Both the position numbers and the translations under genes were made by a program. From Leptodactylus fallax (taxonomy: Eukaryota; Chordata; Amphibia; Anura; Leptodactylidae): a stretch of 64,000 nucleotides of DNA. The DNA lies in NCBI GenBank assembly GCA_947044405.1, contig CAMRHE010000333.1, positions 2,046,001-2,110,000 of the forward strand. Direction: 5' to 3'. Positions 6,043 to 59,998 of this stretch are shown here, piece after piece. Below the pieces are notes generated by a model. It searched no databases and was not told the origin of the DNA. It saw only the letters and a list, made by a program, of their open reading frames with translations. The first letter of the stretch is position 1, and every line of letters begins with the position of its first letter.

Positions 6043-7106
6043 GACATCAAAAAAGAAATGTGTGACATCACAATGGGTCATTGTGACATCACAATGGAAA
6101 TCTGTGACATCACAATGGGGCATTGTGACATCAAAATGGAACTCAGTGACATCACAATGGAACTCAATGACATCACAATGGGGCATTGTGACATCACAAT
6201 GGAACTCTGTGACATCACAATGGGGCATTGTGACATCACAATGGAACTCTGAAATCACAAGGGGGCATTGTAACATCATAATGGAACTCAGTGACAACAC
6301 AATGGGGCATTGTGACATCACAATGGAACTCTGTCACATCACAATGGGGCATTGTGACATCACAATAGAACTCAGTGACATCACAATGGAACTCTATGAC
6401 ATCACAATGGGGCATTATGCTATCACAATGGGGCATTGAGACATCACAATGGAACTCAGTGACATCAAAATGGGGCATTGTGACATCAAAAAAGAAATGT
6501 GTGACATCACAATGGGGCATTGTGACATCACAATGGAACTCTGTGACATCACAATGGGGCATTGTGACATCAAAATGGAACTCTGTGACATCACAATGGT
6601 GCATTGTGACATCAAAATGGAACTCTGTGACATCACAATGGGGCATTGTGACATCAGAATAAAACTCAGTGACATCACAATGGAACTCTGTGACATCACA
6701 ATGGGGCATTGTGACATCACAATAGAACTCAGTGACATCACAATGGAACTCTGACATCACAATGGGGCATTGAGACATCACAATGGAACTCAGTGACATC
6801 ACAATGGGGCATTATGCTATCACAATGAGGCATTGAGACATCACAATGGAACTCAGTGACATCAAAATGGGGCATTGTGACATCAAAAAAGAAATGTGTG
6901 ACATCACAATGGGGCATTGTGACATCACAATGGAAATCTGTGACATCACAATGGGGCATTGTGACATCAAAATGGAACTCAGTGACATCACAACGGAACT
7001 CTGTGACATCACAATGGGGCATTGTGACATCAAAATGGAACTCAGTGACATCACAATGGAACTCAGTGACATCAAAATGGGGCATTGTGACATCAAAAAA
7101 GAAATG
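6043..7106. repeat. Satellite sub-block marked by an A-rich variant monomer
   Basis: A distinct variant monomer with GACATCAAAAAAGAAATG occurs at 6043, 6482, 6879 and 7089 and was not seen elsewhere in the array. Spacings of about 439, 397 and 210 bp point to successive local duplications that added or lost dimers. This marks the left end of the array as a separate subfamily. Confidence 0.8.
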
Positions 7107-15700: not shown

Positions 15701-18700
15701 ATGGGGCATTGTGACATCACAAAGGGGCATTGTGACATCACAATAGAATTCAGTGACATCACAAAGGGGCATTGTGACATCATAATGGAACTCACTGACA
15801 TCACAATGGGGCATTGTGACATCACAATGGAACTCTGTGACATCACAATGGGGCATTGTGACATCACAAATGAACTTAGTGACATCACAATGGGGCATTG
15901 TGACATCACAATGGAACTGTGTGACATCACAATGGGGCATTGTGACATTACAATGGATCTCAATGACATCACAATAGGGCATTGTGACATCACAATGGAA
16001 CTTAGTGACATCACAATGGGGCATTGTGACATCACAATGGAACTATGTGACATCACAATAGGGCATTGTGACATCACAATGGAACTCAGTGACATCAGAA
16101 TGGGGCATTGTGGCATCACAAAGGGGCATTGTGACATCACAATAGAACTCAGTGACATCAAAAGGGGCATTGTGAGTTCACAATGGAACTCACTGACATC
16201 ACAATGATTCTCAGTGACATCACTATGGAACTCTGTGACATCATAATGGGGCATTGTGACATCACAATGGAACACTTTGACATCCCAATAGGGCATTGTG
16301 ACATCACAGTGGAACTCAGTGATATTCCAATTGGACATTGTTACATCACAATGGGGCATTTTGGCATCACAATGGAACTCAGTGACATCACAATGGGTCA
16401 TTGTGACATGACAATGTAACTCTGTGACATCACCATGGGGCATTGTGACATCACAATTGAACTCAGTGACAACACAATGGGGCATTGTGACATCACAATG
16501 GAACTCAGTGACATCACAATGGGGCATTGTGACATCACAATGGAACTCAGTGACATCACAATGGGGCATTGTGACATCACAATGGAACTCAGTGTCATCA
16601 CAATGGGGCATTGTGACATCACAATGGAACTCAGTGACATCACAATGGGGCATTGTGACATCACAATGGAACTCTGTGACATCACAATGGGGCATTGTGA
16701 CATTACAATGGATCTCAGTGACATCACAATAGGGCATTGTGACATCACAATGGAACTTAGTGACATCACAATGGGGCATTGTGACATCACAATGGGGCAT
16801 TGTGACATCACAATGGAACTATGTGAGATCACAATAGGGCATTGTGACATCACAATGGAACTCAGTGACATCAGAATGGGGCATTGTGACATCACAAAGG
16901 GGCAATGTGACATCACAATGGAACTCAGTAACATCACAATGGGGCATTGTGACATCACATTGGAACTCAGTGACATCACAATGGGGCATTGTGACATTAC
17001 AATGGATCTCAGTGACATCACAATAGGGCATTGTGACATCACAATGGGGCATTGTGACATCACAATGGAACTATGTGACATCACAATAGGGCATTGTGAC
17101 ATCACAATGGAACTCAGTGACATCAGAATGGGGCATTGTGACATCACAAAGGGACATTGTGACATCACAATAGAATTCAGTGACATCACAAAGGGGCATT
17201 GTGACATCACAATGGAACTCACTGACATCACAATGGGGCATTGTGACATCACAATGGAACTCTGTGACATCACAATGGGGCATTGTGACATCACAAATGA
17301 ACTTAGTGACATCACAATGGGGCATTGTGACATCACAATGGAACTCTGTGACATCACAATGGGGCATTGTGACATTACAATGGATCTCAGTGACATCACA
17401 ATAGGGCATTGTGACATCACAATGGAACTTAGTGACATCACAATGGGGCATTGTGACATCACAATGGAACTATGTGACATCACAATAGGGCATTGTGACA
17501 TCACAATGGAACTCTGTGACATCAGAATGGGGCATTGTGACATCACAAAGGGGCATTGTGACATCACAATAGAACTCAGTGACATCACAAAGGGGCATTG
17601 TGACATCACAATGGAACTCACTGACATCACAATGATTCTCAGTGACATCACTATGGAACTCTGTGACATCATAATGGGGCATTGTGACATCACAATGGAA
17701 CACTTTGACATCCCAATAGGGCATTGTGACATCACAGTGGAACTCAGTGATATTCCAATTGGATATTGTTACATCACAATGGGGCATTTTGGCATCACAA
17801 TGGAACTCAGTGACATCACAATGGGTCATTGTGACATGACAATGTAACTCTGTGACATCACAATGGGGCTTTTTGACATCACAATGAAACTGTGACATCA
17901 CAATGGGACATTGTGACATCACAATGAAACTGAGTGACATCACAATAGGGCATTGTGACAGCACAATGGAACTCAGTGACATCACAATGGGGCATTGTGA
18001 CATCACAATGGTTCTCAGTGACATCACAATGAAACGCTGTGACATCTCAATGGGGCATTGAGAAATCACAATGGAACTCAGTGATATCACAATGGGACAT
18101 TGTGACATCACAATTGAACTCTATGACATCACAATGGGGCATTATGCTATCACAATGGGGCTTTTTGACATCACAATGAAACTGTGACATCACAATGGGA
18201 CATTGTGACATCACAATGAAACTGAGTGACATCACAATGGGGCATTGTGACATCACAATGGAATTCAGTGACATCACAATGGTTCTCAGTGACATCACAA
18301 TGAAACGCTGTGACATCACAATGGGCCATTGAGAAATCACAATGGAACTCAGTGATATCACAATGGGGCATTGTGACATCACAATTGAACTCAGTGACAA
18401 CACAATGGGGCATTGTGACATCACAATGGGGCATTGTGCCATCACAATGGGGCATTGTGACATCACAATAGAACTCAGAGACATCACAATGGGGCATTGT
18501 GACATCACAATGGAACTTTGTGACATCACAATGGGGCATTGTGACATCACAATGGAACTCAGTGTCATCACAATGGGGCATTGTGACTTCATAATGGAAC
18601 TCAGTGACACCACAATGGGGCATTGTGACATCACAATGGAACTCTGTGACATCACAATGGGGCATTGTGGCATTAAAATGGAACTCTGTGTCATCACAAT

Positions 18701-19800
18701 CGGACATTGTGACTTCATAATGGAACTCAGTGACATCACAATGGGGCATTGTGACATCACAATGGAACTCTGTGACATCACAATGGGGCATTGTGACATC
18801 ACAATGGAACTCTGTGACATCACAATGGGGCATTGAGACATCACAATGGAACTCTGTGACATCACAATGGGGCATTGTGAAATCAGAATGGAACTCAGTG
18901 ACATCACAATCGGGCATTGTGACATCACAATGGAACTCTGTGACATCACAATGGGGCATTGTGACATCACAATGGAACTCAGTGACATCACAATAGGGCA
19001 TTGTGACAATCACAATGGAACTCTGTGACATCACAATGGGGCATTGTGACATCACAATGGAACTCAGTGACATCACAATGGGGCATTGTGACATCACATT
19101 GGAACTCAGTGACATCACAATGGGGCATTGTGACATTACAATGGATCTCAGTGACATCACAATAGGGCATTGTGACATCACAATGTAACTTAGTGACATC
19201 ACAATGGGGCATTGTGACATCACAATGGGGCATTGTGACATCACAATGGAACTATGTGACATCACAATAGGGCATTGTGACATCACAATGGAACTCAGTG
19301 ACATCAGAATGGGACATTGTGACATCACAAAGGGGCATTGTGACATCACAATAGAATTCAGTGACATCACAAAGGGGCATTGTGACATCACAATGGAACT
19401 CACTGACATCACAATGGGGCATTGTGACATCACAATGGAACTCTGTGACATCACAATGGGGCATTGTGACATCACAAATGAACTTAGTGACATCACAATG
19501 GGGCATTGTGACATCACAATGGGGCATTGTGACATCACAATGGAACTCACTGACATCACAATGGGGCATTGTGACATCACAATGGAACTCTGTGACATCA
19601 CAATGGGGCATTGTGACATCACAAATGAACTTAGTGACATCACAATGGGACATTGTGACATCACAATGGGGCATTGTGACATCACAATGGAACTCTGTGA
19701 AATAACAATGGGCATTGTGACATCACAATGGAACTCTGTGACATCACAATGGGGCATTGTGACATCACATTGGAACTCAGTGACATCACAATGGGGCATT
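12780..19800. repeat. Long-range satellite duplication, offset 5940 bp
   Basis: The stretch about 12780-13860 recurs at about 18720-19800 with the same order of rare variants, including a lone GACAATCACAATGG (13066 and 19006), the ATGTAACTTAG variant and the ACAAATGAACTTAG variant. The offset is 5940 bp over most of the stretch. Flanking stretches also match but with slightly different offsets (for example 5961), so dimers were gained or lost after the duplication. Confidence 0.8.
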
Positions 19801-19899
19801 GTGACATCATAATGGAACTCAGTGACATCACAATGGGGGATTGTGACATCACAATGGAACTCTGTGACATCACAATGGGGCATTGTGACATCACAATGG

Positions 19900-22342
19900 A
19901 ACTCAGTGACATCACAATGGGGCATTGTGACATCACAATGGTACCCAGTGACATCACAATGGGGCATTGTGACATCACAATGGTACCCAGTGACATCACA
20001 ATGGGGCATTGTGACATCACAATGGAACTCTATGACATCACAATGGGGCATTGTGCCATCACAATGGGGCATTGTGACATCACAATAGAACTCAGAGACA
20101 TCACAATGGGGCATTGTGACATCACAGTGGAACTCAGTGACAACACAATGGGGCATTGTGACATCACAATGGAACTCAGTGACATCACAATGGGGCATTG
20201 TGACATCACAATGGAACTCTATGACATCACAATGGGGCATTGTGCCCTCACAATGGGGCATTGTGACATCACAATAGAACTCAGAGACATCACAATGGGG
20301 CATTGTGACATCACAATAGAACTCAGAGACATCACAATGGGCATTGTGACATCACAATGGAACTCAGTGACATCACAATGGAACTCAATGACATCACAAT
20401 GGGGCATTGTGACATCATAATGGAGCTCAGTGACATCACAATGGGGCATTGTGACATCACAATGGAACTCTGTGACATCACAATGGGGCATTGTGACATT
20501 ACATTGGAACTCTGTGACATCACAATGGGGCATTGTGACATCACAATGGAACTCTGTGACATCACAATGGGGCATTGTGACATCACAATGGAACTCTGTG
20601 ACATCACAATGGGGCATTGTGACATCACAAAAGAAGTCAGTGACATCACAATGGAACTCAGTGACAACACAATGGGGCATTGTGACATCACAATGGGGTC
20701 ATTGTGACATCACAATGGAACTTAGTGACATCACAATGGGGCATTGTGACATAACAATGGGGTATTGTGACATCACGATGGAACTCTGTGACATCACAAT
20801 GGGGCATTGTGGCATCTCAATGGAACTCAGTGGCATCACAAAGGGGCATTGTGACATCTCAATGAAACTCTGTGACATCACAATGGGGCATTGTGAATCA
20901 GAATGGAACTCAGTGACATCACAATGGGGCATTGTGACATAACAATAGAACTCAGTGACATCACAATGGAACTCTATGACATCACAATGCAACTCAGTGA
21001 CATCACAATGGGGCATTGTGCCATCACAATGGGGCACTGTGACATCACAATAGAACTCAGAGACATCAGAATGGGGCATTTTGACATCACAATAAAACTC
21101 AGTGACATCACAATGGAAGTCTGTGACATCACAATGGGGCATTGTGACATCACAGTGGAACTCAGTGACAACACAATGGGGCATTGTGACATCACAATGG
21201 AACTCAGTGACATCACAATGGGGCATTGTGACATCACAATGGTACCCAGTGACATCACAATGGGGCATTGTGACATCACAATGGTACCCAGTGACATCAC
21301 AATGGGGCATTGTGACATCACAATGGAACTCTATGACATCACAATGGGGCATTGTGCCATCACAATGGGGCATTGTGACATCACAATAGAACTCAGAGAC
21401 ATCACAATGGGGCATTGTGACATCACAGTGGAACTCAGTGACAACACAATGGGGCATTGTGACATCACAATGGAACTCAGTGACATCACAATGGGGCATT
21501 GTGACATCACAATGGAACCCAGTGACATCACAATGGGGCATTGTGACATCACAATGGAACTCTATGACATCACAATGGGGCATTGTGCCCTCACAATGGG
21601 GCATTGTGACATCACAATAGAACTCAGAGACATCACAATGGGGCATTGTGACATCACAATAGAACTCAGAGACATCACAATGGGCATTGTGACATCACAA
21701 TGGAACTCAGTGACATCACAATGGAACTCAATGACATCACAATGGGGCATTGTGACATCATAATGGAGCTCAGTGACATCACAATGGGGCATTGTGACAT
21801 CACAATGGAACTCTGTGACATCACAATGGGGCATTGTGACATTACATTGGAACTCTGTGACATCACAATGGGGCATTGTGACATCACAATGGAACTCTGT
21901 GACATCACAATGGGGCATTGTGACATCACAATGGAACTCTGTGACATCACAATGGGGCATTGTGACATCACAAAAGAAGTCAGTGACATCACAATGGAAC
22001 TCAGTGACAACACAATGGGGCATTGTGACATCACAATGGGGTCATTGTGACATCACAATGGAACTTAGTGACATCACAATGGGGCATTGTGACATAACAA
22101 TGGGGTATTGTGACATCACGATGGAACTCTGTGACATCACAATGGGGCATTGTGGCATCTCAATGGAACTCAGTGGCATCACAAAGGGGCATTGTGACAT
22201 CTCAATGAAACTCTGTGACATCACAATGGGGCATTGTGAATCAGAATGGAACTCAGTGACATCACAATGGGGCATTGTGACATAACAATAGAACTCAGTG
22301 ACATCACAATGGAACTCTATGACATCACAATGCAACTCAGTG
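19900..22342. repeat. Recent satellite duplication, offset 1343 bp
   Basis: Sequence from about 20100 to 20998 recurs from about 21443 to 22341, apparently identical over more than 700 bp (for example 20430-20942 versus 21773-22285). The offset of 1343 bp is one base short of 64 monomers. Both copies contain the same one-base deletion (ATGGGCATTG at 20336 and 21679), so the deletion predates this duplication. Confidence 0.85.
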
Positions 22343-23795
22343 ATATCACAATGGGGCATTGTGACATCACAATGGAACTCCGAGACATTCCAACAGGGCA
22401 TTGTCACATCGCATTGTGGTATTGTGACATCACAATGGAACTCAGTCACATCACAATGGGGCATTGTAACATCACAATGGAATTTAGTGAAATCACAATG
22501 AATCTCAGTGACATCACAATGATTCTCAGTGACATCACTATGGAACTCTGTGACATCATAATGGGGCATTGTGACATCACAATGGAACACTTTGACATCC
22601 CAATAGGGCATTGTGACATCACAGTGGAACTCAGTGATATTCCAATTGGACATTGTTACATCACAATGGGGCATTTTGGCATCACAATGGAACTCAGTGA
22701 CATCACAATGGGTCATTGTGACATGACAATGTAACTCTGTGACATCACAATGGGGCTTTTTGACATCACAATGAAACTGTGACATCACAATGGGACATTG
22801 TGACATCACAATGAAACTGAGTGACATCACAATGGGGCATTGTGACAGCACAATGGAACTCAGTGACATCACAATGGGGTATTGTGACATCACAATGGAA
22901 TTCAGTGACATCACAATGGTTCTCAGTGACATCACAATGAAACGCTGTGACATCTCAATGGGGCATTCAGAAATCACAATGGAACTCAGTGATATCACAA
23001 TGGGGCATTGTGACATCACAATTGAACTCAGTGACAACACAATGGGGCATTGTGACATGACAATGTAACTCTGTGACATCACAATGGGGCTTTTTGACAT
23101 CACAATGAAACTGTGACATCACAATGGGACATTGTGACATCACAATGAAACTGAGTGACATCACAATGGGGCATTGTGACATCACAATGGAATTCAGTGA
23201 CATCACAATGGTTCTCAGTGACATCACAATGAAACGCTGTGACATCACAATGGGCCATTGAGAAATCACAATGGAACTCAGTGATATCACAATGGGGCAT
23301 TGTGACATCACAATTGAACTCAGTGACAACACAATGGGGCATTGTGACATCACAATGGAACCCAGTGACATCACAATGGGGCATTGTGACATCACACTGG
23401 AACTCTATGACATCACAATGGGGCATTGTGCCATCACAATGGGGCATTGTGACATCACAATAGAACTCAGAGACATCACAATGGGGCATTGTGACATCAC
23501 AATGGAACTCAGTGACATCACAATGGAACTCAGTGACATCACAATGGGGCATTGTGACATCACATTGGAACTCAGTGACATCACAATGGGGCATTGTGAC
23601 ATTACAATGGATCTCAGTGACATCACAATAGGGCATTGTGACATCACAATGGAACTTAGTGACATCACAATGGGGCATTGTGACATCACAATGGAACTTA
23701 GTGACATCCCAATGGGGCATTGTGACATCACAATGGGGCATTGTGGCATCACAATGGAACTCAGTGACATCATAATGGGGCATTGTGACATCACC

Positions 23796-28205: not shown

Positions 28206-29295
28206 CTATAATATGAGTTGTCTAGCCATTGAAATGTGCTTAGGCTGGGCCTGGGTCAATATGCCATGTACATCATGAGGAGTAAGTACTGTGACAGGGA
28301 AATCCAATACGATTTCTGCACCTTTCTCCAGGGCCAATTGGACTGCAGCTACTGCCCTAACACAAGAAGGTGCTCCTCTGGACACTGGGTCTAATCTAGC
28401 AGAATAGCAAGATACTGGTCTTTGTTGGTGTCCATGAGTCTGAGTAAGCACTGCTGTTGTGTGTCCCAACATTTCGTTACAGTAAAGAGAAAAAGTCTCA
28501 TCATAATTAGGAAGTCCTAAAACTTGTGTAAATAAGTGCCAACTTAATGGAGTGGAAGTTTTCCACTGCCTGTTCTGGTTTAGTGATGCAGTCATAGAGA
28601 GGTTGCATTAACAGGGATACATTACAGATCCACTGTCTGCAGTAGGACACAAGGCCTAAGAATGTCCTAAGTTGTGTCACACCATTCGGGGGTTTAGGCT
28701 CCTGTATGACCTGAAGTCTATCAGGGGTCAGATGTCCTTGTAAAATGCAATGACCTAGAAAAACAACTTTAGTAAGGCAGAACTGCAATTTGAACTTAGA
28801 TGCTTTACATCCATTTTCTGCTAAAAAGCACAACCGAGATACTGATGCTTGTACATATCTCCTAGGAGGGGCAACATAAAAAAAGCAGGTCATCCACATA
28901 CTGGAGTAGCACCATGCCCTGCAGTATACGGGGTGGGAGAATTCTGTGCCCCTTGTGGTAGCACTGTCCAGGCATATTGTTTATCCTTCAAGGTAAATGC
29001 AATGTGACTATTACTGGGGGTACTGGCAATTTGCCTATATCTGTTTTTCCTTTTGCCAGAGGTAATAGGGCACACAACCTAGATTTTCCTTTACACTAAC
29101 TACCTCTGCATTGTTTTGCTTTGTCAGGAAAATCAAGGAGTGTAGGGAACATAAGGTGTCTTCTGACATTACTGGTAACAGTGAGACCATCCCATCTGGT
29201 TCATACATAATGTGAGCCATTAGGGCTTGTAAAACATCTGATCCCAGCACGTTAACTGAGACAGACTCACTGACACGGAATCTAGTGGTAATCAT
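28206..29295 (-). pseudogene. Retroviral reverse transcriptase and RNase H, degenerate
   Basis: Minus-strand fragments in three frames. FTLKDKQYAWTVLPQGAQNS is the LPQG region of gamma/epsilon retroviral reverse transcriptases. The polymerase catalytic YVDD region falls at a frame break (near 28890). The thumb is readable (FLGHCILQGHLTPDRLQV). The RNase H start follows (28595-28206) with LTPHDVHGILTQ. At least two frameshifts are present. An N-terminal piece at 29295-29035 probably belongs to the protease/RT junction. Confidence 0.8.
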
Positions 29296-31139: not shown

Positions 31140-34100
31140 TCAGAGACCCTGTAATGTACAATACATGTCCCAGGGTGCCCAAATAGCCCCAAAGGCTTCC
31201 TGTGAATTATGTAGGCCAGCAGTCAGGTATTCAAGACTCCTCACATCCTTCATTCTAGCCACAAGCTCAAGACTAGATGGGGGACTCACCTTCTTCCAGT
31301 TTCTAGCTATGAGAGTTTTAGCTGCAGTACAAAGATGCAAGAAAAGCCTGGATGACTTATTGCTCAGGTGTCTGGGGGGAAGGTTCAGGAGATAAAGAAG
31401 AGGGTCAAGAGGAACCTCTTGCAAAAAGAGAGCAGTCGTCAGAGTCCTGACCTCCCTCCAAAAACCGAGGATGAGAGGGCACGTCCAAAAGATATGGTGC
31501 AGGGTACCCACCGCAGCTCCACAGCGCCAGCACCATGGGGGAACTAATGGGTTTAAAGTATGAAGGAGAGCCGGAGTATGATACCAATGCATCAACAGCT
31601 TATACTGCGTTTCCCTAAACGTAATGCACTGAGATGATTTCTGGGCCCGAGACCATACAATCCGCCACTGTTCCTGGGAGATGGGTTTACCCACCGCCTC
31701 CTCCCATTTAAGCATATAGCGATGATTAACAGGAGAGCCTGTAGTTTGTGAGTTAAGAAGTTGGTAAATAGAGGATATAAAGCCCCTAGTGGACGTGCCT
31801 GCACGGCAAATCTTTTCAAAAGCGGTGGGGAGTGACACCTTAAGAGACCCATGGAGGGAGCGGACAAAGTGAACCACCTGCAAGTAATGGAACCATTCAG
31901 TACTTGGCAGGTTTTGATTAGCTGTAAGATAAGCAAAGGACCTGAGTTCCAAGGTTCCAGGGTCAACCATGTCAGCAATCCGGTAAAGGCCAGCTTCAGA
32001 CCACACTTTAGTCATGGCAGAAGTCAGGCTCTCTGGGAGAAGGGAGTTGTATAGTATGGAGACCATAGATGAGCGCGGGGACATCAGGGAGAATCTAGCA
32101 CAACAGGTAGACCAGATAGATCTAGTAAACCGAATGGGGCCCAACAGGTACGAGGCAGGGGGGGTGGGGGGGGAGCTGACCCACAGAAGCGCGTTAGGAT
32201 GCATGGGTGCCAGCCATAGCTTCTCTATCTGCACCCATCTGGTGTATGCTGGCATAGCCGCCCAGAATGGGATATGGCGTAAGTGGGCCGCCCAGTAATA
32301 ATGTAACAGATGTGGGACAGCCATACCCCCAGACCCCCTATCCGCCAGCATAACAGATCTAGGTATTCGGTGTCGTTTTGCTTTCCAGATAAACTGGAAG
32401 ATAGCTTTCTGTAGGTTCCGTAATTCTCCCCGAGGTATCGCGACTGGGAGCGTCTCGAAAAAATACAGTAGCTTCGGGAGGAGAGTCATCTTGACCGCAG
32501 CAATTCTCCCCAAAAGGGAGATAGGCAAGGGTTGCCATTTGTCCAATAGGGCTCTTAGCTCACAAAACAACCGCGGGTAGTTTGCCGAGTAGAGGGTCGC
32601 ATAGGAGGTGGATATATGGACTCCCAGGTAGCGGATAGAGGACTCCCGCCACTGGAAATCGTAATTACTGCGGAGGAGAAGGAGAAGGTCCCGTGGGATG
32701 TTAAGTGGGAGTGCCTCAGTCTTCGCGGGGTTCACCTTATACCCTGAGAGATCACCATAGGTCTCTAGCGAGCGCAGCAAGTTTGGAAGGGTAGTATGAG
32801 GGGAGGTGAGAGTGAGGAGTACATCGTCCGCAAAGAGAGATATCTTAAATTCCTTATCTTGGACCATGATGCCCTTGATATTAGGGTCTCACCTAATCTT
32901 GGCCGCTAGCGGTTCAATGCAGAGGGCAAATATGATGGGTGACAGGGGGCAACCCTGCCTAGTGCCATTTCGAATAGTGAAGAAGGGCGAAGATGCATGG
33001 GGAAGCTTAATTGCTGCTGAGGGTAAGGAGTAAAGGGCCTGGATAGCTGTGAGAAACGGTCCCGTAAGCCCGAACGCCTTAAGCGTAGTATGCATAAACG
33101 ACCAATTTATGCGGTCAAAAGCCTTTTCAGTGTCCAGGCTCAAGAGAAGGGCCGGGGTAGAATAATGATTGGCCACCTCCACCAAATCCACAGTCCTCCT
33201 GGTGTTGTCACCACCCTGACGACAGGGGATGAATCCCACCTGGTCCTTATGGACAAGCAGAGGGAGCCAAGCATTCAGTCTATTGGCTAAGAGTTTGGTG
33301 AAAAGTTTCAGGTCCGTGTTCAGCAAAGCAATCGGTCGGTAGTTAGCACAATCCTGCAAGTCCTTACCCGGTTTAGGGACCAATGTGAGTAGTGAAGAGA
33401 GCATAGTCGGGGGTATAGGGGAACCTGAAAGGAAGGAATTGAAGAGGGACAATAGATGAGCAGAGAGTTCACCCTGGAAAACCTTATAATAATTGTAAGT
33501 GAACCCATCTGGGCCTGGGGCTTTCCCATTTGGGAGGTCCCTCAGGACCCCTTCTAGTTCCTCCCTGGTGATGGGGGTGTTCAGGGAGGTTAGGGCCTCA
33601 GGAGGAAGGCGTGGGAGACAACAATCCTTTAAATAGTCTTCCAGTAGTGTTGAGTCATCCCCAGGGAGTAGTGCTCGTGGGGGGGGTAAGTCATACAGCT
33701 TAGAGTAGTAAGAGTAGAACGCCAGCGCCACAGCATCAGGGTGATGTTGAAGAGTACCCGCGGGGTCACGGACAGAGTGTGGTGTGGAAGAGGCCCGATG
33801 ATCCCTGAGGGTTCCTGCCAGGAGGGTATGAGATTTATTACCTCGTTCAAAAAACCGCTGACGGGTATAAAGGAGAAGTCGTTCCACATGGCGGGTCTCC
33901 AAATCACGGAGGTCCGCCCGGGCCAGGACCAAACGGCGAAGAACCCCCAGGGATGGATGCGCTGCCAAAGTCGTCGTAAGGGACCGAATACGGGCTTGGA
34001 GGAGCTGTTCCTGGGCCTGTCTGTCCCTTTTAAGCCTAGAAGCCAATGCGATACAGCATCCTCTCATGACCGCCTTATGGGCTTCCCAGAGAATGGCAAG

Positions 34101-35048
34101 AGAGTCTACCGAGCCTAAGTTGTCCCTAAAATAATCTATCAAGTGTGTGCGCAGGGTCTCGAGGGAGGTCGGCGAATTGAGCAGTGTTTCGTTAAGACGC
34201 CAATGACATTGGCGAGTAGGCACTGGAGTCGTAGATAAGGTAACCACGACTGGGGCATGATCAGACCAGGTGAGAGGGCCAATGTTCGTGTCCCTAAGCA
34301 AACGAAGAGCGGGAGCATTTCCAAAGAAGTAGTCAATGCGGGTGTGAGTGTTATGAGGGTGAGAAAAGAAGGTGTAGGAGCGCGCCGTAGGATTGTCCAC
34401 TCGCCAAAGGTCATACAAAGAGTGGGCGCGGATCAGCCTGCGGAACTCCCTTGCAAGTTGGGCCAACCTATGGGGGGTTGGGCCCTGGGGTAACGCCAGA
34501 CGATCCGCCCGTTCAGAGAAGACCATGTTAAAGTCTCCCCCCACCAGCCAAGCTGATGGTGGGAGAGCGCGCAGACGGGAGAATACCCGGCGCAAGAACG
34601 GGATCTGTGCTGAATTGGGGGCATAGACATTGCATAAAACAATCGGGGCACCATAAAGGAGCCCCTCCAAGATAACAAACCGGCCACCTGGGTCTATGTG
34701 GGAAGTCGTCACTGTAATTGGGCAGGATCGAGAAAGAAGGATAGCCACCCCAGCTCTGCGTCGATTGTGGAAGGCTGAAAAAGCTACGGGAAAATAATGC
34801 TTAGCGAAGGCAAAAGTACCAGCGCGGTCAAAATGAGTCTCCTGAAGAAACGCCACATCCGCTCGTAAGGAGCGGAGTTCTCTAAGGACATGGCGCCTTT
34901 TAATGTTGGAACCCAGGCCCTTGACATTAATTGTCACGCACCTAACCATTGGGACCCAGGATTGGAGGACAGTGGCGGATTGCAATAAGCTCACCCATCT
35001 CACATGACGCTGGCAAGTTTCCCTCGGAGAGGCAAAAGGGCAATCCAC
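31140..35048 (-). pseudogene. L1 ORF2 endonuclease/reverse transcriptase, one in-frame stop
   Basis: ORF2 nicks the target with an AP-type endonuclease and copies the LINE RNA there. The frame is open from 35048; the likely start is the Met at 34949 (MVRCVTINVKGLGSN). The endonuclease spans about residues 1-230, with GDFNM and the catalytic SDHAP motif. The reverse transcriptase follows with PKPGKD...NYRPIALLN, RQGCPLSP and the catalytic FADD. Near the C end a Cys-rich knuckle (CWRCGAAVGTLHHIFWTC) is present. The only lesion is a TGA at about 32888-32890, where AGG-TGA-GAC suggests an arginine CGA changed by CpG decay. Reading frame is otherwise continuous for about 1300 codons. Confidence 0.93.
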
Positions 35049-35516
35049 AAACAGGAACCCAAAGTCGAGGCAGGGTCTCTAGATCAGGGAGGGGGGGGAA
35101 AGAGAGGGAGGGAGGGAGGCAAAAGACATCGTAAATGACAAAGTAAAAATAAAAACAGTTAAACAATACTTTGTGGGCGAGGCTAAGTCACTCGCCTGGG
35201 GACCAATGAGGGCAGCCAGAGGTCCAATCAGGATCAATGGCCGCACAGTCCAAGTATCCCCTTAGGGGGGAGAGCGTGGACAGGAGGTCGGAGGGGAGGC
35301 GGTGGATCCCCAACCACCAGTAAAAAGAAGGAAGGAAGGGGAGTCACCGGAACCCCACCCCGCCCCCACTCCGCTAAAACAATCCAATAATAAGCATAAT
35401 AGATGAGACCCGTAGACCTAAAAAAAGAAAAAAGAGAAGCAAACATAACATTAAGGCATGCAGATTCCAAAGCACCACCGAGAAAAGGGAGAACGTCTCA
35501 AGGGGGGGCAGCCTCC

Positions 35517-42060: not shown

Positions 42061-42076
42061 AATAAATAAAATAAAT
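42061..42076 (-). promoter_or_regulatory. AU-rich mRNA instability element (proximal)
   Basis: Minus-strand ATTTATTTTATTTATT, about 200 bp after the stop codon, contains a second UUAUUUAUU nonamer. Confidence 0.55.
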
Positions 42077-42268: not shown

Positions 42269-45200
42269 TCATTTGCACTTTCTACCAAGTTTTAATAAAA
42301 ATATCTTCAGTTTTTGAAAAAATTGCTCAGGATTAGTTTCTTCAATGTCCAATTTTCCCTGAAACTAGAAAAACAGATTTGTCATGTATGTAATTGTGTA
42401 ATATATCTGTAAGTGTTATTTGCATTCATTATCAAATTTACACATTTCATTAAAAAAGGAGAAGAAGGAAAGTAGACGAGGGTTCATAATTTTGCTACTC
42501 TATTAATGTACATTATAACTAAGCTGCAGAACTGCTAAGGCTGGGTTCACATCTGCGCTCGTTACCCGTTTGGGGATTCCGTCCCCCATTCCACTTGAAA
42601 AATGTGGACTTTTCTCTCTGCATTTTTCAGGTGGAAACTGGGCGGAACCCATTATAGTCCATGGGTTCCATAGTTCTCAGTGGGTAACTGCTTTTTAAGC
42701 AGATTGGGTTTCCGTTTTTCAGGTCCCAAGCGGACCCAAAGAACGGAAACCCGACCGCAGGTGTGACCCTAGCATAAGTTAATATTTTATTTTTATTTCA
42801 ATCCATTGTACATTCAAAGGATATTTCCACCTTTGTGTCCATTTTTTTAGTCAAATTAGTAAGAAGTACTGTATAGGACAAAAGAAAGACCAGAAATGAC
42901 CAGTGACAGACTGAGATTCCTTGGGCCTGCTGGATAAAATTATTATGGGGTCCACTCTCCAGCAACCCCTAGGAAATAGATCATAGTAATTTACATGTCT
43001 CCATTGATGTCTTTAAAATTAATAGGTGCACATGTCAGGGCTGTGGAGTCGGAGTCGGAGTCGTGGAGTCGGAGTCAGTGCCTATTTTGGTGGAGTCGGA
43101 GTCGGTATAAAATGGACCGACTCCCAAAATATATAATAAATTGGTACAGTTAGTAGTACAATGCAGTATGTGCTGAATATATTTTCATAAGAATTTGGGA
43201 AAATGATGAAATGTTGAAAATGATGAAATGTCCTGTAAAGGTCTGTTCTATTCCTCATATAATGATGGGACTGAGTTCTGAGTGAACCTATAAGGTTTAG
43301 CAGTGCCAGGGCTGTGGAGTCGGAGTCGTGGAGTCGGAGTCGGAGTCGGTGCCTATTTTGGTGGAGTCGGAGTTGGAGTCGGAGTCAGGGGAAATTGAGG
43401 AGTCGGAGTCGGAGTCGGGGCTTTGGCGTACCGACTCCACAGCCCTGGCACATGTAGTCTGTGATATAAAGCGTAACTAAAATTAATGACAACTTTTGAT
43501 TTCTGGCCGTATTTGCATCAGTAATACATTTTGTAATATACTTTATTAACAAATTTTGGATCCTTTCTGTGAAACTGTGCATTTTTTCGCTCTTCCCCTT
43601 GCTTCTGTATTGAGAGCTTTTCCTGCCTCTCATTGAATGTTACTGTGTACGAGAGTACGGGGCTGTGCAATATGTAGAGAATGAGGGTAGGGGAGAGTCA
43701 CTTCAAACAGTTATATCTCGGGCACTGTAAATCGTACAAACTGGCTTTTTGTGTCATATGAAAGTGGAGATTCTAGTGCTATCTAAATTATTTCCAGATA
43801 TATGACTGGCTGAAAACACAGTTGGGATTGGGATTTTTTATATCATATATATTATACAGCTGCATATAAATATCATAATCCCAACTGTGTTTTCAACCAG
43901 TGATATCTCTGGAAATAATTTAGATAGCACTGCAGCCTAATCCTAGTTGAAAACACACTTGGGATTAGGATATATATTAGGAATTCCAATTCTGACTGTG
44001 TTTTCAGTGAAATAATTTAGATAGCACTTGCACCTAATGTAACATGAAAGAAGAGAATCTCCACTTTCATATGACACAAAAAGCCAGTTTGTATGATTTA
44101 CAATGCCCGAGATATTACTGTTTGAAGTGACCCTCCCCTACTCTCATTCTCTACATATTACACAGCCCCGTACTCTCGTACACAGTAACATTCAGTGAGA
44201 GGCAGGAACAGCTCTCAATACAGAAGTAAGGGAAGAGCGAAAAAATGTAGGATTTCACAGAACTGATCCAAAATTTGTTTACAAAGTATATTACAAAAAG
44301 TATTAATGACACAAATAGTGACAGAAAATCAAAAGTTGTCCGAAAGTTTACTTACGCTTTAAACGAACATCACATGTCGACTGAAAGTGGATGTGTGAAT
44401 AAGACCAGACGAATGCTTGACAAAAAATTGCTTCTATCAGCCTCACATGTGATATAAAGAACCTGACAATCAACTCACCTCATGCTCTTTAGAGAAAGCT
44501 AGGATTTTTTGTACTTTATGTAGGCCAGGTATATTTTCCTTCAGTTTGTCTAGTTCATCATGATATAACTTTAGACATTTCAAACTCTAAAAAAGAAGAT
44601 AAAGGACATTTCACTCTGTAGAAAATGTAAAATATTTTTACTGATGTAGCATCACACAGAACTCTGCAGCAAGAAAAGGTGGTGTGGCTTAACATAAAAT
44701 AAGATAAGGTAAACTAATAGGTAGTATGATCTTAGACTAGACAGTATAGATAGCCCAGATTTATCATCAAGGCATTAGACTCTGTGATAAATCTGGCACA
44801 GTTTAAGGCCAGGGTCCCACATTACAAAAATGCAGCATATTACATTACCTGTAAAGTGGATGGGATTCTGGCAAATCCTATCCACACATTGCAGAAAAAA
44901 ATCTGCAGCGAAAATGTTGGGATTTTGCAAATCACAGCATGTCAATTATATCTATGGAAACACTGGCATTTTCTGTATAGTTCTAATAGAAGCAGAAAGA
45001 GTTTTCCTCTGTGGACTTTCTATGAAAAATGCTTCAGAAAAAAACGCAATGCATTTCCACTGCAATCTTTTTCACAGCCTTTTTTTTGGAGCGATTCGCT
45101 GCGTGGGGCCTTAGCCTAAAACTAAGTCTAGGTTCCCATCGCTTAAAACATACAGTATTAGAAAATCTGCCTTGGAGACTGTGTTGCATCCCCTTCATCA

Positions 45201-46372
45201 TGAGCTTTATCTTCTGAACTGCCACTGATAATATTTTTAATGCTTGTACTGCCATGTAAATGACCTATAGTCATTTGACCTATGTTAACATACAGTATTA
45301 AAACATACCTAAACTTTCAGACAACTTGATTTTCTGGCAGAATTTGTGTCATTTATAAATGTTGTAATATACTTTATTCATGAGTTTTGGCTCCTTTTTG
45401 TGGAATCTTGCATGTCTTAATTATTTCCTCTTTTTATTGTCAGCTGAAAGATATACACCACTTCTCACTAGAGGGTGTACAGGTTCTTGTGTAATGCAGG
45501 GAATCTGAGGCCGCAGCTTCCCTGCATTACACAAAGTCATACATTCTTTCTCCAGTGAGATGCATGGAGGAGAGAAAGAAGGAAAAAATACAGAAGGGAC
45601 AAAAAGTAGATCTCAGCACAGGATGCTGCCCGAAGATCAAAACTTGTTCTAAACTTTAGGTCCCCTTAACATAAAATGTCATTCTAATAGTAATGCACAG
45701 AATGCTCATGCTGGTATAGTAGAAATGCTATGCGTATATGGTTTGCTATTTGTTACAGTGGCTATTTGACATGCAAACTTTGATGACTTACAACAGTCCT
45801 GCTTATTAGCTGTGTGCCAAGAGGCAACAGAGAGGTAAAAGTATGGAAACCTCCAACGTGTGGGAATGTGGGTAAGAAAGTCAGAAACCGGCAAAGTGAA
45901 GTAGGTGTGTGGAGTTACATGTGGAATTACATGTAATATACTTTATTCATGAGTTTTGGCTCCTTTTTGGTGCACCTCTCAGCTCCAAACTAAACTTTAT
46001 ATAGTAAAATAGTTTTACTTACAGTGCAAGAGGCATCTGCTGGACTTTGAAGTGCCATTTCCTAAGCAAAAACATAAAAAAAAACATTAAAAACATTAAT
46101 TTATATCTTAAAGAGCAAGAGTGTCATATAAATGATCTTTCAGCAAATAACTGGTAAGATAACAAATGTAGTACAACTATTAAACTAAGTTTAACATTAA
46201 AAACAATATAAAACATAGTAAAATAATTTTTTACCTTCACTTTAGCATTTGAAATATTTTGTGCTGACAAGAAATCGGATCCATCTGCGACAAGTAGACA
46301 TGAAACAGGTCGACTGTAGGCTCCACAAGCACATAGTGCAAGCGCAATGAGACAAAGTAAGTTATTCATCAT
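42269..46372 (-). CDS. Candidate secreted short-chain four-helix cytokine, 4 exons
   Basis: Exons: 46372-46235, 46061-46023 (39 bp), 44586-44479 (108 bp) and 42364-42269. All introns are GT-AG (GTAAAA, GTAAGT, GTGAGT donors) and phase 0. Exon 1 gives a signal peptide (LLCLIALALCACGAYS) and a mature start RPVSC with one N-glycosylation site (NIS). Exon 2 reads EMALQSPADASCT. Exon 3 starts SLKCLKLYHDELDKLKENI. Exon 4 has an amphipathic helix NPEQFFQKLKIFLLKL and ends GRKCK, then TGA. One Cys per exon; a first-to-last pair would resemble the IL-4 Cys3-Cys127 bond. Four phase-0 exons, a tiny exon 2, a short intron 1 (173 bp) and long introns 2 and 3 (1436 and 2114 bp) fit the IL-2/IL-4/IL-5/GM-CSF class. 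The tiny exon 2 favours the IL-4/IL-5/GM-CSF side. Which member is unresolved. An in-frame ATG at 46459 could extend the N-terminus but would bury the signal peptide. Confidence 0.7.
42538..42776. mobile_element. MITE in intron 3
   Basis: Ends CTAAGGCTGGGTTCACATCT and the inverted CACACCTGCGG...GTGACCCTAGCAT match imperfectly. Interior is a clear inverted arrangement of TTTCCGTT/GAACGGAAAC words. No coding capacity. Confidence 0.65.
43036..43447. mobile_element. hAT-type MITE in intron 3, GGAGTC-rich
   Basis: Starts CAGGGCTGTGGAGTCGGAG and ends with the inverted GACTCCACAGCCCTG. The 8-bp duplication GCACATGT lies on both sides (43028-43035 and 43448-43455), a hAT signature. The body contains many GGAGTC(G) repeats, and a second internal start (CAGGGCTGTGGAGTCGG at about 43309) suggests one copy inserted into or fused with another. 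Confidence 0.9.
43460..44455. mobile_element. Large foldback (inverted-repeat) element in intron 3
   Basis: About 400-bp arms in opposite orientation. Left-arm words (GTACGAGAGTACGGGGCTGTG near 43650, GTCATATGAAAGTGGAGATT near 43762, ATCTAAATTATTTCCAGA near 43780) reappear inverted near 44165, 44057 and 43910. Arms end around TAAAGCGTAACT (43470) and the inverted TTACGCTTTAA (44350). Transcribed, it would form a very long hairpin. Confidence 0.8.
44803..45120. mobile_element. MITE in intron 2
   Basis: The left end TTAAGGCCAGGGTCCCAC and the right end GCGTGGGGCCTTAGCC form an imperfect inverted repeat. Open frames inside are chance. Confidence 0.55.
45300..45665. mobile_element. Relative of the intron-3 foldback, in intron 2
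   Basis: Shares CTTTATTCATGAGTTTTGG-type sequence and the start AACTTTCAGACAACTTGATT with the foldback at 43460-44455 (inverse of its right end). The centre holds its own inverted pair (TGTAATGCAGGGAA and TTCCCTGCATTACA near 45490-45535). A further fragment lies at about 45925-45965. Confidence 0.65.
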
Positions 46373-46420
46373 TAGCAGTTTTGTTGCTTTTTGTGACTTT
46401 CCGGCATTGTTCTTAGTCAT

Positions 46421-46426
46421 TTTATA
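46421..46426 (-). promoter_or_regulatory. Candidate TATA box of the cytokine-like gene
   Basis: Minus-strand CATATAAAATG places TATAAA about 50 bp upstream of the preferred start codon, so transcription would begin near 46395 and skip the upstream ATG at 46459. A second TATAAAG at 46529-46535 would instead include that ATG. GGAAA words (NFAT-like cores) occur nearby on the plus strand (near 46440 and 46493). Confidence 0.4.
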
Positions 46427-47012
46427 TGTTTTTTCTTGAGGAAATGCCATAAATGGCATCTAAGATAAAGCGTAAATATGTCTTCGCTACTTGGAAATTG
46501 GTGTTTTCTAATACATGACACAGTATTTCTTTATAAATTTTTAATCTTTGAAAATTGCACTGATAATAATGGAATTTAGGAAGGAGGAAAACCACAAATG
46601 CTTATCCACGCGTGATAATTCTTAGATCATTTAGATAACGGATAGAAGTTGTCTGCAATTTATTATGCAGCACTTTCATAGATTAGTATCTTCAAAAAAT
46701 TTGTGACGTCTACCCTGAATAAGGGAATCAAACTGATCTGCCCAGACTGCAGTGCCCTGAATGCAAAGCTTTAACATAGTTTATATATACTGTGTTCCAA
46801 ATTATTATGCAAATTATATTTTTGTCTGATTTTCTTAAATGGTCGATGCAAATGACAGTCAGTATAACGTTTACATCTTCAACCGTTAAAGTTTAAATCA
46901 CATTTTATATCTCACAAACCTCCCAATGATAACATTTTTTTTTCACACATTAAAAAATTTAAATCCACTGTTCCAAATTATTATGCGCAACAGAGTTTCT
47001 AAAGATGTTATA

Positions 47013-48651
<1,639 letters not shown>

Positions 48652-48796: not shown

Positions 48797-49740
48797 TCAC
48801 AATTCTTGCATCCATTGAACTTGTGAGTTTTTGGATAGTTTCTGCTTGAATTTTTTGCAAGATGTCAGAATAGCCTCCCAAAGCTGTTTTGATGTGAACT
48901 TCCTCCCACCCTCATAGATCTTTTGCTTGAGGATACTCCAAAGGTTCTCAATAGAGTTGAGGTCAGGGGAGGATGGTGGCAACACAGTGAGTTTTTCTCC
49001 TTTTATGCCCATAGCAGCCAATGACTCAGAGGTATTCTTTGCTGCATGAGATGGAGCATTATCACAAACGTAGACTATTTTACTATAGAAGGCATGGTTC
49101 TTCTTTTTGTACCCTGGATAAAAGTGGTCAGTCAGAAACTCTATATACTTTGCAGTTATTTTCACACTTTCAGGGACCCTAACGTGGACTACCAGCTCTC
49201 TCCCGATGACTCCAGCCCAAAATATGACTCCTCCATGGTGATGTTGCAGCCTTGTTGGAACATAGTGGCCATTCACCAACCAACCATCCACTACTGCACC
49301 CATCTGGGCCATCCAGGGTTGCATGGCACTCATCAGTAAACAAAACTGTTTCAAAATTAGTCTTCATGTATGTCATAACCATTTCTGCTTGTGAGCACTG
49401 TTTAGGGGTGGCCGAATAGTAGGTTTATGCACAACTGCAGCCTCTTAAGGATCCTACACCTTAAGGTTCGTGGGTCTCCAGAGGCTCCAGGAGCCTCTAA
49501 TACCTGTCTGCTGCTGTGTAATGGTATTTTAGTAGCTGCTCTCTTAATCCAATTAATTTATCTGGCAGAAACTTTCCTCATTGTGCCTTTATCTGCAATG
49601 CAACTTCTGGTGTCAGCGCCAAGGAGGCTTTTAAAAGTTTATTATATTATGCGGAAATATCCTGCCACAAAGACAAAAACAAAACAACTGTTGGTACCCC
49701 TACCAGATGTGCAGCATCAAGCCAGGAGCCCCCAAAAAGC
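48797..49740 (-). pseudogene. DD37E transposase, N-terminal half decayed
   Basis: The catalytic half is open (49354-48797; frame-shifted just upstream). First Asp in VLFTDECHATLDGPDG, second in VCDNAPSHAAKN, Glu in SPDLNSIENLW with 37 residues between second Asp and Glu, hence DD37E, not the DD34E of Tc1 or DD34D of mariner. The N-terminal helix-turn-helix region (49400-49740) is full of stops. Confidence 0.8.
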
Positions 49741-54538: not shown

Positions 54539-56511
54539 CAGTGGTAAACCTAGCCTCTTTGCTGCCTGAGGCGGACTATAGAAAGACGCCCCCCCCACCA
54601 AAAAAAAAAATTGAGTTTCCATGCTACTAGCTTCACACGCTGTTATCGTGGTACAATATACACAATACACAAAGTTATAAAACAGTTTTTAAGAATTCTT
54701 CTTCCTGTATTACTTCAGTATCAACAACACGGCATTAACAATGAAAGTAACTTCACGCATCTTCTGCTTGGTGGATGACCAAGCCCGCATGGCCCCCAAT
54801 CTCTATAATAGGAGCGCCGCAAATAGCTGAGCGCTGTATTTCGGCTAGCTTTGGCACTCCCATTGAGGTGAATGAGAGCCACGCTGGTTCGTCCATCCAC
54901 CAAGCAACACACCTACATTCAGCCTGGCTGCAGTCAGGCTGAATGCCCACCCAGTGGGGGGAAAAAACCCAATTCTCAGGCTCAGTGGGGGTCTCAACAG
55001 ACAGACCCCCATCACTCGGGTATTTAGGTGAATACAGGGCAGTAACATTTTCTGACTTACAGGTGACATCTCTGACTATTCCTTCACATTTCCCTTCTCT
55101 TCCTTTTTGGACCGCCATGACCACTTCTTCCAGCTGTGACTTGTCTCTGTAAAGTTTGCAACACAGATATCTTTGGCTCCTCACATTTCCAGGCACCTGA
55201 CCCACATTGTCCTCACCTACACACTCATCCTTCTGCTACCCCAATTATAAAATATATGATATAACCCCCATAATGAATAATATTCCCAAGTGCATCTTTA
55301 TATTAATAATGTCTGTGTGTACCTTGTAAAAATAGTGCCCCTTATCAATGCCCTAGGTGTTTCCTAATTAAAAGGTTTTCCAGGTCATTAATAAACTAAT
55401 GAGTGGGGCTCAAAAACCCAGGATCCCTACTGATCAGCTGTTTGAATGGTACCTGTGTAAGTGCCGTGACTGCTTCTCTGTTTACATAGTGTCATTCATC
55501 TAATAGCGGCCATGTAATGTAACTACAGCCTCGTCCTATACACGTCTATGTGATAAGGCTGGAATTACATCACACGGTCACTATAAACAGACAGCGTATG
55601 ATATAAACAGGCGCCATAGCCCCTGTTTATAACGCCCCATTTACACACACTATAATGTTCCACAGCAGCCCCTGCACACAGTATTACACAGTATTATGAC
55701 CCTCAGCGGCCCCTGCACATGGTATTATGGCCTGCAGTGGCCCCTGCACATGGTATTATGGCCCACAGCAGCCCCTGCACACTGTATTATGGCTCGCACA
55801 CGGTATTATGCTCCATAGTGACCCCTGAACATGGTATTATGCTCCATAGTGGCTCCTGCACAAAGTGCTATGCTCCATAGTGGTCCATGCACATGGTATT
55901 ATGCTCCACAGTGGCCCCTGCACACGGTATTATGCTCCACAGTGGCCCTTGTACACGGTATTATGCTCCACAGTGGCCCCTGCACATAATATTATGCCCC
56001 ATAGTGTCCCCTGCACACAGTATTATGCTCCATAGTGACCCTGCACATGATATTATGTTCCATAGTGGCCCCTGCACATGGTATTATGCTCCATAGTGGC
56101 CCCTACACACACTATTATGCCCCATAGTGTCCCCTTCACACAGTATTATGCTCCATAGTGGCCCCTGCACATGGTATTATGCTCCATAGTGGCTCATGCA
56201 CACAGTATTATGCTCCATAGTGACCCCTTCACACACTTTTATGCACCATAGTGGCCCCTGCACACGGTATTATGCCCCATAGTGGCCCCTGCACTCGGTA
56301 TTATGCTCAATAGTGGCCCCTGCACTGATATTATGCTCCATAGTGGCCCCTGCACACAGTATTATGCCCCATAGTGGCCCACCCATGAACTATTATTATA
56401 CTCTGGGGTCTTTTCAGACCCCAGAGTATAATGATAGGAGACCCAGGGGAGGTGACAAACATAAAAACCACTGTTACTTACCTATCCTGGCCACCGGTGC
56501 AGTCCCTGCAG
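54539..56511. repeat. Large tandem repeat block, first copy
   Basis: Begins CAGTGGTAAACCTAGCCTC and ends GCAGTCCCTGCAGCCT. Its parts recur in the same order in 56512-60110: the CCTAGCCTCTTTGCT start, the CCCACCCAGTGGGGGG stretch, the ATGATATAACCCCCATAATG stretch, the 31-bp minisatellite and the ACTCTGGGGTCTTTTCAGAC stem. Confidence 0.85.
55640..56395. repeat. 31-bp minisatellite, first array
   Basis: Irregular tandem copies of a 31-bp unit containing GGCCCCTGCACACGGTATT followed by ATGCTCCATAGT, with many point differences. Confidence 0.9.
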
Positions 56512-59100: not shown

Positions 59101-59499
59101 TATGATATAACCCCCATAATGACTAATACCCCGAATGCATCTTTATATTAATAATGTCCGTGAGTACCCTGTATAAATAGTGCCCCTTAGTAATAATGCC
59201 CCAAGGTGTTAACTAATTAAAAGGTTTTCCTGGTCATTAATAAACTAATCAATGGGGCTCAAAAACCCAGGATCCCTACTGATCAGCTGTTTGAATGGTA
59301 CCTGTGTAAGTGCCGTGACCGCTTCTCTGTTTAGATAGTGTCATTCATCTCATAGTGGCCATGTAATGTAACTACAGCCTCGTCCTATACACGTTTATGT
59401 GACAAGGCTGTAATTACATCACACGGTCACTATAAACAGACAGTGTGTGATATAAACAGGCGCCATAGCCCCTGTTTATAGCGCCCCATTTACACACAC

Positions 59500-59998
59500 T
59501 ATAATGTTCCATAGCAGCCCCTGCACACAGTATTACGGCCCGCAGCGGCACCTGCACACTGTATTATGCCTCGCAGCGGCCCCTGCACACGGTATTATGC
59601 TGCATAGTGGCCCCTGCACACTGTATTATGCCTCGCAGCGGCCCCTGCACACGGTATTATGCTCCATAGTGGCCCCTGCATACAGTATTATGCCCTGCAG
59701 TGGCCACTGCACACGGTATTATGTTCCACAGCAACCCCTGCACACAGTATTATGCTCCCTAGTGGCCCCTGCACACGGTATTATGCCCCATAGTGGCTCC
59801 TGCACTGGTCTTATGCTCCATATTGGCCCCTGCACATGGTATTATGCTCCATAGTGGCCCCTGCACAGGGTATTATGCTCCATAGTGGCCACTGCACACT
59901 GTATTATGCTCCATAGTGGCGCCTTCACTGGTATTATGCTCCATAGTGGCCCCTGCACACAGTATTATGCCCCATAGTGGCCCACCCATGAACTATTA
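59500..59998. repeat. 31-bp minisatellite, second array
   Basis: Same 31-bp unit as 55640-56395, fewer copies, part of the duplicated block. Confidence 0.9.

Follow-up and report, generated by a model that had tools for sequence, protein, structure and literature searches.

A candidate short-chain helical cytokine gene in the frog counterpart of the IL3/CSF2 locus

The window analyzed here is a 64-kb stretch of the genome of the frog Leptodactylus fallax (C333:2046001-2110000, where C333 is contig CAMRHE010000333.1, which ends at 2166943). On its minus strand lie four exons with GT-AG borders that join in one phase-0 frame to give a 124-aa protein of the secreted type, and we refer to them as gene A. 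A first-pass annotation of the window had proposed these exons as an undescribed short-chain cytokine gene, and the four exons, their borders and the single frame were all reproduced from the sequence. Positions of gene A and its flanks are those of the window; positions of other genes are those of C333.

Exon structure and flanks of gene A

46372-46235, minus strand: exon 1, 138 bp, signal peptide with the hydrophobic stretch MMNNLLCLIALALCACGAYS and the first 26 mature residues
46061-46023, minus strand: exon 2, 39 bp, EMALQSPADASCT, carrying an LxxP motif
44586-44479, minus strand: exon 3, 108 bp, SLKCLKLYHDELDKLKENIPGLHKVQKILAFSKEHE, with a cysteine at residue 4 and putative helices B and C (from the amphipathic moment)
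42358-42269, minus strand: exon 4, GKLDIEETNPEQFFQKLKIFLLKLGRKCK and stop, with putative helix D

The spliced product reads, from exon 1 to exon 4, MMNNLLCLIALALCACGAYSRPVSCLLVADGSDFLSAQNISNAKVK / EMALQSPADASCT / SLKCLKLYHDELDKLKENIPGLHKVQKILAFSKEHE / GKLDIEETNPEQFFQKLKIFLLKLGRKCK, and the mature protein, of roughly 104 aa, has cysteines at positions 25, 58, 63 and 123 only. The 39-bp exon 2 and the signal peptide in exon 1, both pointed out before, were seen again, the latter with a hydropathy of 3.21 across 10 residues; signal cleavage at AYS/R was placed by the -3/-1 rule alone and is one of eight sites that satisfy the rule. Exon 4 has the highest amphipathic moment of the whole protein. 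The first-pass annotation had started this exon at 42364, an alternative acceptor (ctag/TTT) 6 nt upstream of 42358 that yields 96 bp with the stop and a 126-aa version. The acceptor at 42358 (TTTCAG/G) is the stronger one, with a total splice score of 63.9 vs. 54.7, and among 14 models of the gene A tile in the search described next (the cut-off being the score of the 42364 version) the 42358 version ranks first and the 42364 version last. A start at 42358 rather than 42364 is more likely; the coordinates of exons 1-3 and the end of exon 4 stood as given before.

To be counted as a model, a set of exons needed an ATG exon with a hydrophobic start, an exon 2 of 30-80 bp, an exon 3 of 90-200 bp and a terminal exon of 60-180 bp, all in phase 0, scored with splice matrices and codon usage. 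In the strict search, splice scores had to be at least those of the first-pass model, and 34 ten-kb tiles from the 207 kb around gene A were scanned on both strands, tiles of a 42-bp satellite being left out; the thresholds were set from gene A's own values, so this is not a blind test. A comparable four-exon model was present in one of the 34 tiles, namely that of gene A, in one of 68 tiles when the tiles overlapped, and in none of 400 first-order Markov resamples of the gene A tile. With loose thresholds, 5/34 tiles held some model, the gene A tile being the best (63.9 vs. 55.9, 47.3, 42.4 and 30.8) and the second-best containing gene C, one of the neighbours described below; the strict finder misses another neighbour, gene B (donor score 3.0). 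The gene A model is more than a chance product. When the 2.5-Gb assembly was searched with the gene A protein, its own exons 1, 3 and 4 were matched (E 2.4e-10 or better), and the sole further match (E 2.96) was a stretch overlapping its own exon 2. Gene A is single-copy in the assembly.

The following features flank the coding exons:

46420..46426, minus strand: TATAAAA, 54 bp before the gene A ATG
46398..46590, no strand assigned: four GGAAA/TTTCC cores, within 300 bp upstream of the ATG, where ~0.9-1.0 are expected
42061..42069, minus strand: TTATTTATT, a nonamer of the AU-rich-element type, 200 nt past the stop in the 3' flank

We take the GGAAA/TTTCC cores to be NFAT-like. As background rates, a TATAAAA occurs in 369 of 20688 80-nt stretches from the region, and the nonamer in 60 of 8268 250-nt stretches. 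Judged by these motifs, the flanks of gene A resemble those of inducible cytokine genes.

Several mobile elements lie in or next to gene A. Intron 3 holds an inverted-repeat pair of a repeat element (window 43467-44363) that touches no exon and has at least 115 matches in the genome (from 40 scored of 13570 candidates); repeat matches, obtained with 44000-46000 only as query, likewise touch no exon of gene A. Pieces of Tc1/mariner-type transposases occur at window 1613-2338 (minus strand), 47338-47901 (plus strand; to 48431 by eye) and 48797-49363 (minus strand), and two of these three adjoin gene A.

Gene order and neighbouring cytokine-type genes

Along C333 the order is IRF1, a PDLIM-type domain and P4HA2, followed by four cytokine-type genes, D (1.945 Mb), C (1.966 Mb), B (1.995 Mb) and A (2.088-2.092 Mb). 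The markers are:

C333:1320269-1321562, plus strand: IRF1, two exons with 79 and 89% identity to human IRF1 vs. 70 and 58% to IRF2
C333:1648566-1648709, minus strand: DUF4749 domain, a domain match that we take to be PDLIM-type
C333:1859176-1867143, plus strand: P4HA2 (prolyl-4-hydroxylase alpha), two matched exons

The first P4HA exon is 75% identical to human P4HA2 (40 aa) vs. 59% for P4HA1 (46 aa), and the second scores 93.2 bits with P4HA2 vs. 87.4 with P4HA1; a clear P4HA1 is borne by another contig, C5. IRF1, ~770 kb from gene A, was found by a genome-wide search. An ACSL1 fragment had no match in the 207 kb, which leaves the far flank of the cluster without an ACSL marker. Synteny with RAD50 and KIF3A, or with IL21 and ADAD1, had been suggested in the first-pass annotation as a check on the cytokine proposal. 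KIF3A, RAD50 and IRF1 queries gave no match within the 207 kb, and the RAD50 zinc hook was matched on contig C1013 only. The RAD50/KIF3A end of the cluster is not where gene A lies. The flank found was P4HA2/PDLIM/IRF1, no genome-wide search having been aimed at ADAD1 or BBS12, the neighbours of IL-2/IL-21.

The full human 5q31 order is IRF1 - (SLC22A5/4) - PDLIM4 - P4HA2 - CSF2 - IL3 - ACSL6. Relative to the human strands, the C333 block is mirrored, and A, B and D are then oriented as CSF2 and IL3, with C inverted. A position of gene A in the frog block that corresponds to the IL3/CSF2 end of human 5q31 is supported, and the earlier proposal of a short-chain cytokine relative is both strengthened by the IRF1-PDLIM-P4HA2 synteny and narrowed to the IL3/CSF2 locus. 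For the human interval, PMC5390679 puts ACSL6--IL3 at chr5:131.37 Mb, has IRF1 near 131.80 Mb and names PDLIM4, P4HA2 and SLC22A4/5 as genes with local expression quantitative trait loci, and PMC5297717 gives single-nucleotide polymorphisms of CSF2, IL3, ACSL6 and P4HA2 as linked.

The exons of B and C were selected by eye among the 70 top-ranking of 169 splice-bounded exons in the 207 kb, and those of D are given with them:

C333:1997399-1997247, 1997133-1997092, 1994901-1994743, 1992416-1992249, minus strand: gene B exons 1-4, 153/42/159/168 bp, phase 0, 173 aa
C333:1965869-1965997, 1966112-1966150, 1966812-1966958, plus strand: gene C exons 1-3, phase 0
C333:1947492-1947340, minus strand: gene D exon 1, 70.6% protein identity to B across 51 residues
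Gene D exon 2, minus strand: 39 bp, NDTFLKTPMEHRW
C333:1945416-1945562, minus strand: gene D exon 3, a genome match to exon 3 of B

Used as a genome query, exon 3 of B matches B, C and D, with one further weak match on contig C191 (E 1.37, two stops inside). By sequence, B, C and D are close paralogues of one another. The ratio of nonsynonymous to synonymous substitution rates (dN/dS) for exons 1 and 3 is 0.44 for B-D (100 codons), 0.47 for B-C (92) and 0.66 for C-D (92), and 0.54 for B-C when exon 2 is included (105 codons); these values, taken without a significance test, suggest that the coding exons of B, C and D are under constraint.

Gene B has a helix A of HIIDEIINL, which we liken to MIDEIITHL in human IL-3, and cysteines at GM-CSF-like places (HHEC, KQHC, EDC and NLC). 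At the helix-A glutamate site, B and C read IIDE, D reads IIDK with a lysine, and IL-5famA of the spotted gar reads FISE. The flank of gene B carries TATA[AT]A at -74; an AU-rich nonamer of the gene A kind was not found within 1.2 kb of it. A pattern scan for a signal-peptide exon and an exon 3 with a cysteine near its start, designed after B and C were known, returned A, B and C together with one exon judged spurious. One further candidate neighbour, a coiled-coil-like open reading frame (ORF) of 161 residues that begins MGKKKKISVCKK (C333:1962433-1962915), had no Pfam match over the cut-off and was dropped.

The remainder of the region is rich in repeats. An 18-kb minisatellite of 42-bp units (window 5621-23794, 433 copies, 85% matches) can be read without a stop for hundreds of codons, in several frames of either strand, so that its long ORFs are mechanical and not genes. 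Two arrays of one 31-bp unit lie ~3.1 kb apart (window 55796-56380 and 59493-59983). A long interspersed nuclear element occupies window 31140-35078 on the minus strand, its endonuclease and reverse transcriptase domains spread across different frames and more ORFs visible by eye to 37230, and a similar copy was seen by eye at C333 ~2029-2035 kb. Retrovirus-like pol pieces with broken frames were seen by eye at window 28507-28980 (minus strand) and C333 ~2108963-2112130, the first without a Pfam match. Rfam and tRNA scans of the 64-kb window were empty.

Assignment to a cytokine family

Its exon structure and its locus together suggest that gene A is probably functional and fast-evolving, encodes a short-chain helical cytokine and belongs to the amphibian equivalent of the IL3/CSF2 cluster. 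Among nine cytokines, and under three scoring schemes, the best alignment partner was gar IL-5famA both for A (z 3.9-5.1) and for B (z 4.4-4.7). We also built three small profiles, a beta-common one from five sequences (B, gar IL-5famA and human IL-5, GM-CSF and IL-3), an IL-4/13 one from two and an IL-2/15/21 one from three. With the beta-common profile gene A obtains 12.7 bits, a score that 1 of 2000 exon-wise shuffles matched; its scores on the IL-4/13 and IL-2/15/21 profiles were matched by 89 and 41 of 2000, respectively. Exon 2 of all four genes, A to D, carries an L-x-x-P, which is present as LLTP in gar IL-5famA and occurs in human IL-5, GM-CSF and IL-3 as well. The beta-common gene plan of four coding exons and phase-0 introns is present in A and B. 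GM-CSF has four coding exons with phase-0 introns, and IL-3 has five exons. The locus and gene B carry most of the weight in the family case, and beta-common membership of gene A appears likely.

Compared with GM-CSF and IL-3 of amniotes, gene A shares the IRF1-PDLIM4-P4HA2-CSF2-IL3 block, four phase-0 coding exons (as in GM-CSF), a small exon 2, the L-x-x-P, a cysteine at residue 4 of exon 3 (SLKC in A, EPTC in GM-CSF) and a C-terminal amphipathic helix followed by a cysteine. Unlike them it is short, at ~104 mature residues, and it shows neither database-detectable similarity nor the GM-CSF disulfide partners nor a clear helix-A glutamate. With gar IL-5famA, its top pairwise score, it shares alignable ISNAK/IENAK and LxxP...CT stretches, whereas cysteine placement differs and a gar glutamate is aligned to an alanine of A; the gar gene also lies, according to PMC4690019, at the IL-5 site of a RAD50-containing locus, unlike gene A. 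With its neighbours, A has in common the phase-0 exons (four in B, exons 1-3 in C and D), the signal peptide in exon 1 and an exon 2 of 39-42 bp with LxxP, which in A, C and D is 39 bp long with the form L-x-[ST]-P. In contrast, exon 3 measures 147-159 bp in B-D and 108 bp in A, and no likeness of A to B was detectable.

A number of observations weigh against this assignment. Databases recognize neither gene A nor gene B. The first-pass annotation had named a search with family profile hidden Markov models as a check; run against Pfam with the 126-aa and 124-aa versions of gene A, it gave no match at E values of 10 or less. The 126-aa version had a best E of 0.052 against PDB sequences (saccharopine dehydrogenases and others, none credible) and, against 5.8 billion proteins, 3 candidates with 0 at E up to 10. 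Gene B had five Pfam families, all under the cut-off (best Mis12, E 0.0044, 17.2 bits vs. 25.7 needed), a best PDB E of 0.25 (Kalirin) and 9 candidates with 0 at E up to 10 among the same 5.8 billion proteins; exons 1-3 of gene C had one Pfam family under the cut-off (Peroxin-22, E 0.0032). Direct alignment of A with B is not significant (z 0.5-2.1). Exon 4 of C and of D was sought and not found, and these two genes may be incomplete. For the marker P4HA2, the first exon scores 65.1 bits with P4HA1 vs. 63.9 with P4HA2, too close to decide by bits alone, and the PDB chains listed for this exon were all P4HA1.

Further points concern the protein itself and the scores. Helix A is weakly predicted, as the first-pass annotation had already noted with doubt. 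At its glutamate site the best alignment, itself uncertain, gives FLSA with no glutamate in A. Gene A is without the partner cysteines of the GM-CSF disulfides, whereas gene B has all four GM-CSF-like positions; the GM-CSF cysteine pairs are absent from IL-3 and IL-5 and so are not family-defining. The LxxP and cysteine signatures were spotted post hoc. The beta-common profile scores IL-21 at 19.6 and IL-15 at 11.3 bits, alike to A, and gar IL-5famA reaches 22.1 bits on the IL-2/15/21 profile. In a control of the z-scores, pairs of accepted relatives gave 1.7-3.4, human IL-5 and gar IL-5famA being at 1.68, and IL-4 paired with IL-21, a member of another family, gave 2.45; gene B reached z 2.0-2.7 when aligned with IL-21 and at most 3.8 with IL-15. 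Cytokine families are poorly told apart by alignment z-scores, and given the cross-scores of IL-21, IL-15 and the gar protein, the profile scores speak for a short-chain cytokine more than for an exact family. Because of the weak helix A, the lack of a clear helix-A glutamate and the lack of GM-CSF cysteine partners, we place gene A with the short-chain cytokines of the IL3/CSF2 locus. The failed recognition of gene A is not decisive, since the proposed family is so poorly conserved: PMC4690019 describes IL-3/IL-5/GM-CSF-family cytokines as having 'extremely poorly conserved sequences'. The same source has the helix-A glutamate contact the beta-common chain.

Since no glutamate is evident at the helix-A site of A and D has a lysine there, part of the cluster may act through a different receptor or bind without signalling. 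It is accordingly conceivable, if on balance unlikely, that A-D are a lineage-specific expansion at the IL3/CSF2 locus with an altered signalling contact, in which A would represent a separate kind of cytokine, a natural antagonist or a ligand of another receptor and not simply the frog GM-CSF.

We consider it rather improbable that gene A belongs to a different short-chain branch, IL-2/IL-15/IL-21-like or wholly new, that sits in the IL3/CSF2 locus and acts through a receptor unrelated to beta-common. The undetectable likeness of A and B, the lack of an evident helix-A glutamate and the A-like scores of IL-21 and IL-15 on the beta-common profile would suit such a branch, but A lies between P4HA2 and the contig end beside IL-3/GM-CSF-like genes, aligns best with gar IL-5famA and has the 39-bp LxxP exon 2 of C and D, and its IL-2/15/21 profile score is within reach of shuffles.

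It is more doubtful still that gene A is frog IL-4/13, or a copy translocated from that gene, and acts via IL-4R-alpha. Gene A shares with IL-4/IL-13 and with fish and frog IL-4/13 four phase-0 exons, a short-chain size and the first and last cysteines, and its C-terminal helix resembles that of IL-4/IL-13 by eye, with z 2.5-3.2 for IL-4 and 2.2-3.1 for IL-13; its 108-bp exon 3 is within the IL-13 range of 105-114 bp given in PMC4905449. Against this, that paper gives an exon 3 of 120-129 bp for frog, gar and shark (2R vertebrates), and it and PMC9465101 report frog IL-4/13 at the KIF3A/RAD50 locus. The RAD50 zinc hook lies on C1013 and gene A near P4HA2 on C333, and the IL-4/13 profile score is the one that shuffles of A reached most readily, the profile being built from two sequences. 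The hint of IL-4 that the first-pass annotation drew from the first and last cysteines does not fit a location near P4HA2 and away from RAD50. Location, the length of exon 3 and the profile scores led us to set aside IL-4/13 and IL-2/21 identities; these are less likely, and gene A is most likely a strongly diverged short-chain cytokine of the IL-3/IL-5/GM-CSF locus.

That the exons are a decaying or chance model without a functional product is highly improbable: exon 4 turned up in neither C nor D, so that decay is possible in the cluster, and helix A is weak, but the frame is open over four exons with good splice sites, no resample and no other tile equalled the model, and a TATA box, an AU-rich element and conserved synteny accompany it.

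Predicted role and significance

As a short-chain cytokine gene of the IL3/CSF2 locus, gene A would be switched on when immune cells (T or other) are activated, by NFAT-type factors acting at its TATA promoter, and its mRNA would be short-lived through the AU-rich element. The secreted protein of ~104 aa may, as in the rest of the family, fold as a compact four-helix bundle and act on myeloid cells via a type I cytokine receptor, which would most likely pair an alpha chain with the beta-common chain.

Members of the IL-3/IL-5/GM-CSF family are reported from gar and elephant shark in PMC4690019. In the open-access literature we found no description of an amphibian gene of this family; automatic database predictions may exist. 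Cytokines of this family evolve fast, and similarity searches miss them. The test by P4HA2 and IRF1 neighbourhood can be repeated in any amphibian genome. If the assignment is right, a P4HA2-linked cluster of four genes would date the half of the type-2 cluster with IL3/CSF2 to before the split of amphibians and amniotes, and it would offer concrete frog genes for studying how the eosinophils, mast cells and macrophages of amphibians are driven.

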